Shown here: positions 28,450 to 32,103 of the stretch, in pieces
How the letters are laid out: every line of letters starts with the position of its first letter
Position numbering within the stretch: position 1 is the stretch's first letter
Assembly (NCBI GenBank): GCA_002238485.1
Contig: MPMG01000003.1
Coordinates: forward strand, 186,001 to 250,000
Reading direction: 5' to 3'
Length of the DNA stretch: 64,000 nucleotides
From: Chloroflexi bacterium bin20
Lineage (GTDB): Bacteria > Chloroflexota > Anaerolineae > Aggregatilineales > Phototrophicaceae
Notes under the pieces: generated by a model
The model's input: only the letters and a program-made list of their open reading frames with translations
Database searches by the model: none
What the model was told of the DNA's origin: nothing
Program-made: the position numbers and the translations under genes

Positions 28450-29901
28450 CTAAATCTCAGCCAATTCCCGCCAAGCCTCGCCGATGCGCAGAAAGCCTTC
28501 TTCAATTAGGGCTGGCGGATGCAGGCCGAAGTTCAGCCGCAGCGCATGTTTGTGTCCGCCACGCGTCGAGAATTGATTGCCCGGCGCAAAAGCTGCTCCT
28601 TGTTCCAGCGCCGCTTGCAGCAAGTCCGCCGCGTTGGGGCCCGCCGCCGGCAGCTCTGCCCACAGATACAAGCCGCCCTGCGGAGAAAACCAGCTTGCGC
28701 CAGCTGGAAAGTGTCGCTGGGCAGCCGCCAATGCCGCTCCTCGCCGCCGCCGCAGTTCCAGCCGATTACGCTCCAGTTGCTTCCCCAGCACGCCCCGCTC
28801 CAGCAGCAGGTGAATAGCGCGCTGATTCAAGCCCGATGTCGAGATATCAGCCGCTTGTTTGACCCGCACCAGCCGTTCGTACCATGCGCCGTCCGCCACA
28901 AGATAACCGATGCGCACGCCCGGCAGCAGCACCTTGGTGAAGGCGTTGGTATGAATGACCACGCCGCTTTCATCCAGCGCCTTTAACGGAGGCAGCGCCT
29001 CGCCATCAAAGCGGAATTCGCGGTAGACCTCGTCTTCCAGGACGGGGATGCGCAGCCGGGCCGCGAGTCGCACCAGTTGTCGGCGGCGGTGCAGGGGCAT
29101 CAAGTGTCCGGTCGGGTTTTGATAGCTGGGCATGACATAGATGAGGCGAGGCTGCAAGTCGCGGCAAGCCCGCTCCAAGGCATCGATGCGTATGCCCTGG
29201 TCATCGACCGGCAAGCCATGGATGCGCACGCGCCGCGCCTGGGCGATGTCGATGATGCCCAGATAGGTCGGGTCGGCGGTCAGCAAGGTCTCGCCTTGCT
29301 TCATCAGCGATTGCACGACCAGGTCGATGGCTTGCTGTGCGCCGCCGGTGATCAACACATCCTGGTGGCGGCAACGAATGCCAATCGCCCGCACATAATC
29401 GCGCACGGCGATGCGCAGCGGTTGATACCCTTCCGCCACTTCGTAGGACAGAGCGTCTGCGCCATCTCGATCGATGACTTGATTGATGGCGTCTTGCAGA
29501 TAGCGCACCGGGAAGAACTCGGTGGGTGGCGTGCCGCCGCTGAAGTCGATGATGCCTTCACGGCGGTCTTTGCGCAGCATGTGACGCAGGGCGGGGGCGC
29601 GCCGACTCGGTTCGGGAAGCTGTGAGCGAGGCATGGCGCTGGGGACCGTCTGGCGCGCGACATAGGTGCCTTTGCCCACCTGGCTGCTGAGCAAACCTGC
29701 GCCGCGCAGTTCGCTGTAGGCATTGACGACGCTGATGCGGCTGATGTCCTGCTGGCGGGCGAGCGAGCGGCTGGCTGGCAGACGAGCGCCGGCGGGCAGA
29801 TCGCCGCTTTCGATCATGCTGCGGATTTGCGCGATCAGCTGGCGATAGATCGGTGTTGCGCTTTTGCGGTCCAGTGTGATGTTGAGCGCCGACTTGGTCA
29901 T
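28450..29901 (-). CDS. MocR/PdxR-type GntR regulator with aminotransferase domain
   Basis: 483 residues. The N-terminal GntR winged helix (about 1-75) has PIYRQLIAQIRSMIESGDL and LPASRSLARQQDISR. A linker leads to a fold-type-I aminotransferase domain (about 110-480) with YQNPTGHLMP and the PLP lysine in AFTKVLLPGVRIGY. Such proteins sense PLP or a related amino compound and control genes for PLP synthesis, GABA or transport. The neighbours do not point to a target. It converges with the restriction-modification gene, leaving a gap of four bases. Start chosen at MTKSALN, just before the winged helix. Confidence 0.9.
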   Translation of the reverse strand: MTKSALNITLDRKSATPIYRQLIAQIRSMIESGDLPAGARLPASRSLARQQDISRISVVNAYSELRGAGLLSSQVGKGTYVARQTVPSAMPRSQLPEPSRRAPALRHMLRKDRREGIIDFSGGTPPTEFFPVRYLQDAINQVIDRDGADALSYEVAEGYQPLRIAVRDYVRAIGIRCRHQDVLITGGAQQAIDLVVQSLMKQGETLLTADPTYLGIIDIAQARRVRIHGLPVDDQGIRIDALERACRDLQPRLIYVMPSYQNPTGHLMPLHRRRQLVRLAARLRIPVLEDEVYREFRFDGEALPPLKALDESGVVIHTNAFTKVLLPGVRIGYLVADGAWYERLVRVKQAADISTSGLNQRAIHLLLERGVLGKQLERNRLELRRRRGAALAAAQRHFPAGASWFSPQGGLYLWAELPAAGPNAADLLQAALEQGAAFAPGNQFSTRGGHKHALRLNFGLHPPALIEEGFLRIGEAWRELAEI

Positions 29902-29993
29902 CATGATCAAGACTATAGCGCTTGACAAGCCCAATCTGCCACGCGCTGTCGGACAAGCGGCGCCGTTGGCATTTCAGGTGATGCGCGCCCCTG

Positions 29994-30032: not shown

Positions 30033-30740
30033 ATGGCAACGCGCAGCGACAGCGCCGGGCTGGAAAAAGCCCATCTGCTGGATATGTTGCCCACAGAGGC
30101 AGGGCATGTGCTGGAGATAGGCTGTGGCGACGGGCGACTGACACGCAAGTACCACGATCGCGCCAAGAGCGTGGTGGGCATCGATCTGCCAGATACCTTG
30201 GAGACAGCCAGTTTCGATGACATGCCACAAGCGCAGTGCCTGGCTGCCAGCGCCATAGAACTCCCCTTCCGCGATGGTTGCTTTGACGGGGCGATCTTCG
30301 CGCTGTCATTCTGATGAATCGACATTGAGGGCATGGTCCATGCCCTGTCAGAAGCGCGGCGAACGCTCAAGCCCGGCGGTTGGCTGATCGACCTGCGCCC
30401 CACCAAGCGCGACCGCAGAATCGAGCTGGATATGCCCGGCGGCTGCGTGTACATCGGCGAGGTTGATGCCAGCGCCACCAGCCCTGAGCGCGACGCGGCC
30501 GACGCTGCGCTGGGTGATGCCATCGCTGCGAAGCAATTGCGCGCCCGGCACAGCGCTCTTTTCGAGATCGTCATCGACTGCGACAGCGCTGATGACCTGC
30601 GCGACTATGCGAAAGGATTCCGTCGCAGCCGGTTGCCCGCCTTTATCCTGCCGCGAATCGAAGAATTGACCGCCCATGCCGACGACTTCCTCATCCGCAT
30701 CCGCCGCGAAATGACCATCGCGCTGTATAGACGTCTCTAG
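30033..30740 (+). CDS. SAM-dependent methyltransferase with two consecutive in-frame UGA codons; putative tandem-selenocysteine protein
   Basis: Seen: one frame runs from ATG 30033 to TAG 30740 (235 residues) and is broken only by TGA TGA at 30312-30317 (residues 94 and 95). Before them lie motif I VLEIGCGDGRL, VVGIDLP and FDGAIFALSF; after them IDIEGMVHALSEARRTLKPG and a normal C-terminal half. The two halves make one complete class I methyltransferase, with no frame change. A hairpin with a GGUC loop starts 11 bases after the second UGA. Known: bacterial selenocysteine insertion needs UGA plus a SECIS hairpin close downstream. Inferred: both UGA codons may be read as selenocysteine at a position where, as I recall, relatives carry Cys-Cys. 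Alternatives are a pseudogene or separate ORFs 30033-30314 and 30333-30740. Confidence 0.65.
30329..30345 (+). promoter_or_regulatory. bacterial SECIS-like hairpin inside the methyltransferase gene
   Basis: GGGCAT-GGTCC-ATGCCC: a six-base-pair G/C-rich stem with a five-base loop; the full inverted repeat is GGGCATGG/CCATGCCC. The loop has GGUC, as in the E. coli fdhF SECIS, where the loop G and U contact SelB. GGUC starts 17 bases after the second UGA and 20 after the first; in fdhF the distance is 18. Confidence 0.6.
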
Positions 30741-30843: not shown

Positions 30844-32103
30844 ATGCGCAAGTTTCCCTTGTTCGTGCTGGCAGTCGCTGTCGTGTTGGCTTTGGTCGCG
30901 CCGGCCGCAGCGCAGAGCGACCTTGTCGTTGGCGTCGTGCTGGTGGGTCCCAACGACGACCGCGGCTGGAGCACATCGCATCACGAAGCTGGCGAATATG
31001 TCGCAGCAAAGACGGGCGCGACAATTCTGGAATTTGAAAGCCTCAACCCCGCCGACTCGCCCGAAACCACCCTCATGGACGTGGTGGAATTCATGGTTGA
31101 TGATGGCGCTTCAGTCATCTTCACCACATCCGACAGTTTCGAAGAAGACACCAATGTCGTAGCCGCCGCTTTCCCCGATGTCACATTCATTAACATCACT
31201 GGCAGCAACGCCATTCAGTCCAGCAGCATCGTCGAAGGCGAGCACGCCATGATGCACGAGTTGCCCGAGCTGCCGTCCGCCAACATCGGCAACTTCAATA
31301 CCTATATGGAGCTGCCGCGTATGATCGCTGGCTGTGCCGCCGCCCTCACCAGCGAGTCGGGGCATATCGGTTATCTGGGCGCGCTGATCAACCCCGAAAC
31401 GCGCCGTCTGGCTGCCAGCAGCTATCTGGGCGCGCGTTATTGCGCCGACAACTACCGCGACGACATGTCCGCCGACGACATCACTTTCGAGGTCGTCTGG
31501 ATCGGCTTCTGGTTCAATATCCCGGGCGTGACGCTTGATCCGACCGAGGTGGCGCAGGGCTTCCTCGATGGTGGCGCCGATGTCATCATCAGCGGCATCG
31601 ACACCACCGAAGCCATCACAGTCTCCGGGCAATACATGGCAGAGGGCGATGCCAGCTATGGCGTGCCCTATGGCAATGTCAACGGCTGCAGCGAAGCGCC
31701 GGATGCCTGCCTGGGCGCGGCTTATTACAACTGGGGTCCCGCCTACCTGGATGTCGTCGAGCGCGTCATGGACGGCAGCTGGTCGCAAGAATGGATCTGG
31801 TGGGAGCCGAAGTGGGACGAGATCGGCGATGATGGCTTCTACACCGATAGCGATTACAGCGTCGGTGGCTATGTCTTTGGCGATGCGCTGAGCATGGAAA
31901 CGCGCGAGACGCTCAAAGCCTTCGCCCAGGAAATCCACGACTTCCAGACCGACCCCATGAATGCCGGGCAGATGTTCGGCTGGAGCGGACCGCTGAACCT
32001 GCAAGATGGCAGTCCGCTGGCTGGTGACATGGAAGCTGTCAGCTTGCTGGATATCTGGTTCTTGCCCCAGCTGCTGGAAGGCATGACTGGCGCAAGCGAG
32101 TAG
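30844..32103 (+). CDS. BMP-family (PnrA-like) substrate-binding protein
   Basis: 419 residues. MRKFPLFVLAVAVVLALVAPAAAQ is a cleavable signal peptide. The mature part has the BMP pattern: VVGVVLVGPNDDRGWSTSHHEAGEYV, a family signature in which substrate-binding residues follow, then VEFMVDDGASVIFTTSDSF and a long C-terminal lobe. Family members bind nucleosides or related compounds for ABC import. No ATPase or permease follows, so it may serve a transporter encoded elsewhere. Start fixed by GGAGGAAGG upstream. The gene ends in a repeat-rich spacer. Confidence 0.85.
   Translation: MRKFPLFVLAVAVVLALVAPAAAQSDLVVGVVLVGPNDDRGWSTSHHEAGEYVAAKTGATILEFESLNPADSPETTLMDVVEFMVDDGASVIFTTSDSFEEDTNVVAAAFPDVTFINITGSNAIQSSSIVEGEHAMMHELPELPSANIGNFNTYMELPRMIAGCAAALTSESGHIGYLGALINPETRRLAASSYLGARYCADNYRDDMSADDITFEVVWIGFWFNIPGVTLDPTEVAQGFLDGGADVIISGIDTTEAITVSGQYMAEGDASYGVPYGNVNGCSEAPDACLGAAYYNWGPAYLDVVERVMDGSWSQEWIWWEPKWDEIGDDGFYTDSDYSVGGYVFGDALSMETRETLKAFAQEIHDFQTDPMNAGQMFGWSGPLNLQDGSPLAGDMEAVSLLDIWFLPQLLEGMTGASE

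Follow-up and report, generated by a model that had tools for sequence, protein, structure and literature searches.

Can two adjacent in-frame UGA codons in a bacterial methyltransferase gene both be read as selenocysteine (Sec)? This question is raised by one locus in a 64,000-nucleotide stretch of Chloroflexi bacterium bin20 DNA (contig MPMG01000003.1, positions 186,001 to 250,000), hereafter the window. The gene, which we call the UU methyltransferase gene, runs from an ATG at 30033 to a TAG at 30740 and is interrupted only by TGA TGA at 30312-30317, as had been described in an earlier sequence-only reading that proposed a tandem-selenocysteine enzyme. Our data support this proposal, through the Sec-insertion genes of the host, a covarying hairpin, alignment columns that hold only Sec or Cys, and selection on both flanks of the UGA pair. 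Judged from these sequence comparisons, the gene very probably encodes a genuine selenoprotein, a methyltransferase with two adjacent selenocysteines. The features concerned are as follows.

30033..30740, + strand: UU methyltransferase gene, with a predicted product of 235 residues, a class I S-adenosylmethionine (SAM) methyltransferase with Sec94 and Sec95 (reading frame, profile, orthologues and AlphaFold model)
30108..30134, + strand: SAM-binding motif I, VLEIGCGDG (residues 26-34), read from the sequence; G30, G32 and G34 are invariant in alignments A1 and A3
30312..30314, + strand: first UGA (Sec94), Sec in 82 and Cys in 2 of 84 family members
30315..30317, + strand: second UGA (Sec95), Sec in 72 and Cys in 12 of 84 family members
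30328..30346, + strand: bacterial-type selenocysteine insertion sequence (SECIS) hairpin, with arms at 30328-30334 and 30340-30346 and the loop GGUCC at 30335-30339

Decoding of the UGA pair

Translated through both UGA codons, the product matched the Pfam profile Methyltransf_11 at 61 bits (gathering score 21.2), and the match spanned the junction (residues 27-119). Separately, the first half scored 38 bits and the second 15 bits, both below the read-through score. With a profile score above the gathering score and the appropriate fold, the UU methyltransferase belongs to Methyltransf_11. The promoter, which had been described as intact, was not recovered: scanning for consensus promoters gave a single match, on the minus strand, and none that would serve this gene.

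The UGA pair is conserved far beyond this genome. A search of 61 related genomes, 34 of them of the same genus, found orthologues in 32 of the 34 (47-79% identity, the query itself excluded), all 32 with exactly two in-frame TGAs, and TGATGA occupied one and the same site in all 30 orthologues read in alignment A1. Profile searches of 396 genomes of the class and 400 of the phylum extended the family to many other families of Chloroflexota, with every match at E<=1e-22 containing one or two TGAs. When a broader profile (A3) was rerun on the phylum sample, the family was found in 48 of the 400 genomes, as 52 intact loci scoring 157-312 bits, each with one or two TGAs; below these came a gap, after which the matches (77 bits or less) were ordinary methyltransferases whose frames had no internal stop. 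A scan of genome contigs returned a single locus (L032), apparently on the same contig as L006, and a scan of viral contigs gave weak partial methyltransferase matches only.

Codon-by-codon reading of 84 aligned family members showed 70 with UGA-UGA, 12 with UGA-UGY and 2 with UGY-UGA, and nothing but Sec or Cys at either position. An in-frame UGA is thus kept across orthologues with Cys as its sole replacement, the pattern of a selenoprotein. Sec94 is the better conserved residue and Sec95 is more often Cys. UU, UC and CU members are dispersed across the tree, with 11 changes by parsimony, so that Sec and Cys have replaced each other repeatedly at each site; for UU against the rest, at least six changes are forced by well-supported branches. 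The sequence-only reading had taken UU to replace a Cys-Cys pair of related methyltransferases. The aligned columns do hold only Sec or Cys, but wherever a relative has one Sec the pair is Sec-Cys or Cys-Sec, and no Cys-Cys homologue was found in the 400 phylum genomes at permissive thresholds; the next-best matches there (77 bits or less) were other methyltransferases, and those inspected had no Cys pair at the dyad site. Some genomes carry two family copies, for example one UU and one CU in G420 (L065 and L097) and two UC in G206 (L060 and L088), and such pairs offer a natural comparison of Sec positions within one cell.

The hairpin with a GGUC loop that had been noted after the UGA codons was confirmed. 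Bacterial SECIS elements have a loop of 3-9 nt with a G within its first two positions, a stem of 4-16 bp, a distance of 16-37 nt from UGA to loop, and a minimum free energy of -7.5 or lower (PMC13188914). The hairpin falls within all of these limits, with a 7 bp stem, a minimum free energy of -14 kcal/mol and distances of 17 nt from the second UGA and 20 nt from the first, a legal spacing for both. It is present at an identical distance from the UGA pair in every family member, and each of the six inner base pairs is kept in at least 83 of the 84 sequences. In a covariation alignment of 30 sequences picked for diversity (A2), the 7-bp helix was paired in 97.6% of cells, with compensatory double changes in six of seven pairs, a result equalled by none of 500 shuffles; sliding the partner by one column reduced pairing to 27-41%. 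No Rfam family corresponds to the hairpin, the sole match being a sub-threshold microRNA on the opposite strand. Synonymous constraint within the gene is also strongest over the hairpin codons, which rank first among 239 windows of 7 codons; in a close clade the synonymous difference there is 0.06, compared with 0.43 before and 0.34 after. In the same clade the ratio of nonsynonymous to synonymous change (pN/pS) was 0.33 before the UGAs and 0.40 after, so that by this measure both flanks are under purifying selection. Together, the pN/pS of the flanks and the low synonymous difference at the hairpin indicate that the flanks are translated in one frame with an RNA signal between them.

It is almost certain, on these comparisons, that SelB and tRNA-Sec would read both UGAs as selenocysteine. 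A single hairpin would direct both insertions, being used twice in succession on adjacent codons, and such decoding is strongly supported by the comparative sequence data. If only one UGA were decoded as Sec and the other filled by a near-cognate tRNA, a single-Sec product would result. Such an outcome might be favoured because a lone hairpin would have to serve two successive codons, possibly at low efficiency, and 14 of the 84 relatives do have a single Sec. In these relatives, however, the partner residue is always Cys, at either position, and never Trp, Arg or Ser, and 70 of the 84 members have kept the two UGAs despite great divergence, which makes a one-Sec product very unlikely. Gene decay or stops created by assembly error, suggested by a frame broken by two stops and by one member (L141, G460:C26:113047-113759) that is split by a frameshift immediately ahead of its UGA codons, are refuted by the comparative data and scarcely credible: the identical two codons occur in dozens of independent genomes, with purifying selection on both sides and added constraint on the hairpin, and sequencing error is excluded because the pattern recurs in about 80 loci. 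The earlier view that ordinary decay was unlikely is borne out by the 32 same-genus orthologues with both UGAs and by the selection on the flanks.

The genes selA, selB, selC and selD, whose presence had been proposed as a check, are all found in the host genome (3.66 Mb in 22 contigs), as is expected for a selenoprotein: selA scored 541 bits, selB 342 bits and selD 398 bits, and the tRNA-Sec (selC) has a UCA anticodon. The host selD (L128, G000:C15:613456-614391) is itself a UGA-containing selenoprotein form with an SCAGU motif. Matches to selB were found in all 34 same-genus genomes and, across the phylum sample, in 45 of the 48 family-positive genomes compared with 307 of 400 overall (hypergeometric P=0.001). 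UGA is otherwise a normal stop in the host; TGA ends 20 of the 45 large open reading frames (ORFs) in the window and is the terminal stop of several UU methyltransferase orthologues. General reassignment of UGA in the lineage, for which the in-frame UGA of selD might be cited, has a practically negligible chance and is refuted by this ordinary use of TGA in the window ORFs and the orthologues, the selD UGA being a known Sec site.

In this widespread and conserved family, a single bacterial SECIS appears to serve for inserting Sec twice in succession. The natural UU, UC and CU variants form a ready system for the study of SelB recycling on one hairpin, and allow one to ask what two adjacent selenols do beyond a Sec-Cys pair.

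Probable position and possible role of the Sec pair

The AlphaFold model of the UU methyltransferase is a confidently predicted, compact methyltransferase with a predicted local distance difference test score (pLDDT) of 94.9, and its structure matches (Foldseek and VIA) were to methyltransferases, including NodS (Z 17.1), RebM (Z 15.5) and other small-molecule methyltransferases. The Sec pair falls directly after strand beta4. Profile alignment placed the SLCC segment of the UU family on SLHH of RebM, whose His140 and His141 we take to be catalytic, and on SLCH of TleD. According to the WbdD structure paper, two residues of that enzyme, His132 and His133, gather about the electrophilic SAM methyl, and RebM and NodS have His-His or Tyr-Tyr as the corresponding pair (PMC3482155). 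The Sec-Sec dyad would therefore occupy the place of the His-His or Tyr-Tyr pair around the reactive methyl in this group, and alignment and fold together make it likely that the Sec pair is at the active site, facing the SAM methyl.

In such a position the most likely role of the dyad would be to bind a soft acceptor next to the methyl and activate it, the acceptor being either a metal or metalloid or a compound containing sulfur or selenium. A soft metal(loid) or chalcogen is our preferred guess for the nature of the acceptor, and a tentative one. Binding of arsenic or mercury, which the sequence-only reading had suggested, was not supported as stated and is a suggestion from chemistry. We put forward with the same reserve the combined reading in which the acceptor site for a metal(loid) or chalcogen is a vicinal diselenol, with one SECIS used twice and no all-Cys form in the sampled genomes. 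Several points weigh against the explanation as a whole, from decoding to acceptor. The case is built from comparative sequence, and the contact between dyad and SAM is predicted from alignment and a ligand-free fold; no operon is conserved across lineages to indicate a substrate; and no selB match was found in three family-positive genomes (G475, G520 and G686), which are fragmented assemblies, all of more than 200 contigs and two less than 90% complete.

The main rival view of the dyad is that of a redox switch, in which formation of a diselenide turns the enzyme off and the two residues lie outside the acceptor site. Adjacent Sec or Cys residues are able to close a strained ring through a bond between them, and interchange of Sec and Cys is typical of redox sites. 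The methyl-facing placement, however, points to direct participation in catalysis or binding, and Cys-Cys, which would also be able to switch, was not found in the 400 phylum genomes; we consider a switch somewhat unlikely. Slightly less likely is that the enzyme acts in selenium-cofactor or purine and nucleobase metabolism, for example by methylating a thio- or seleno-base, a possibility that depends on the gene neighbourhood.

Gene neighbourhood

Downstream of the UU methyltransferase gene is a neighbour conserved in the genus, its relation to the gene being one of association only.

30844..32103, + strand: PnrA-like (BMP) ATP-binding cassette (ABC) transporter substrate-binding lipoprotein

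In one family (f28; L124:848-8586, also L068 and L071), the methyltransferase gene directly follows that of an XdhC-like maturation factor and has yqeB on its other side (315 bits against a cut-off of 220), beside an XdhA-like hydroxylase, and this locus is a selenium-dependent molybdenum hydroxylase setting. A UPRTase gene precedes the methyltransferase in another family. The f28 context, the PnrA-like lipoprotein and the UPRTase gene are all consistent with action on nucleobases or in selenium-cofactor metabolism. Against this, yqeB is absent from 33 of the 34 genus genomes and the neighbours of the methyltransferase vary by lineage. A general link to selenium-dependent molybdenum hydroxylases was accordingly rejected, as it holds in f28 only, and with neighbours so lineage-specific no pathway can be named. 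Separately, a MocR-type GntR/aminotransferase regulator at 28450-29934 of the window, on the minus strand, is divergent to the UU methyltransferase gene, an arrangement kept in several genus genomes.

Comparison with known systems

We class the UU methyltransferases as a new bacterial selenoprotein family. As its genes would be called truncated or split in ordinary annotation, it is easily overlooked. No NCBIfam model covers it, and the curated cut-offs of the families closest in kind or score were not reached. MduS (NF045649; PMC13188914) similarly combines a methyltransferase domain with two Sec, but has a CxxU motif in a 338-position model against which the UU protein scored 22.2 bits (cut-off 380). 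The selenoprotein arsenite methyltransferases (UxxG) are likewise Sec-containing SAM methyltransferases, but with a different Sec motif, and the UU protein scored 18.9 bits for NF041536 (cut-off 575) and 24.4 bits for NF041537 (cut-off 510). The best-scoring named NCBI families were the DVU_1556 family methyltransferase (NF045667; 50 bits against 155 required) and CpaM (NF043040; 45 bits against 180 required). A 2026 review of 119 prokaryotic selenoprotein families and subfamilies includes MduS and the arsenite methyltransferases and no UU motif (PMC13188914).

Consecutive Sec codons have been regarded as exceptional, and the view that a double Sec site would be unusual agrees with the single precedent that we found, the algal PDI_e (GUGUU motif), described as the first selenoprotein with two consecutive Sec (PMC7539508). 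No other consecutive-Sec protein was found in the literature searched, the scope of which left out most subscription papers, so that an earlier report is possible; in two other papers 'Sec-Sec' denotes bonds or aligned residues. Within that literature, the UU methyltransferase looks like the first bacterial example of a back-to-back Sec pair. Algal PDI_e shares the two consecutive Sec, but is a eukaryotic protein of thioredoxin fold with a eukaryotic-type SECIS and is not a methyltransferase. The methyltransferases of the RebM, WbdD and NodS type, in contrast, share the fold and, by alignment, carry a residue pair at the corresponding position behind beta4, but where theirs are His-His or Tyr-Tyr, encoded without UGA, those of the UU family are Sec-Sec.
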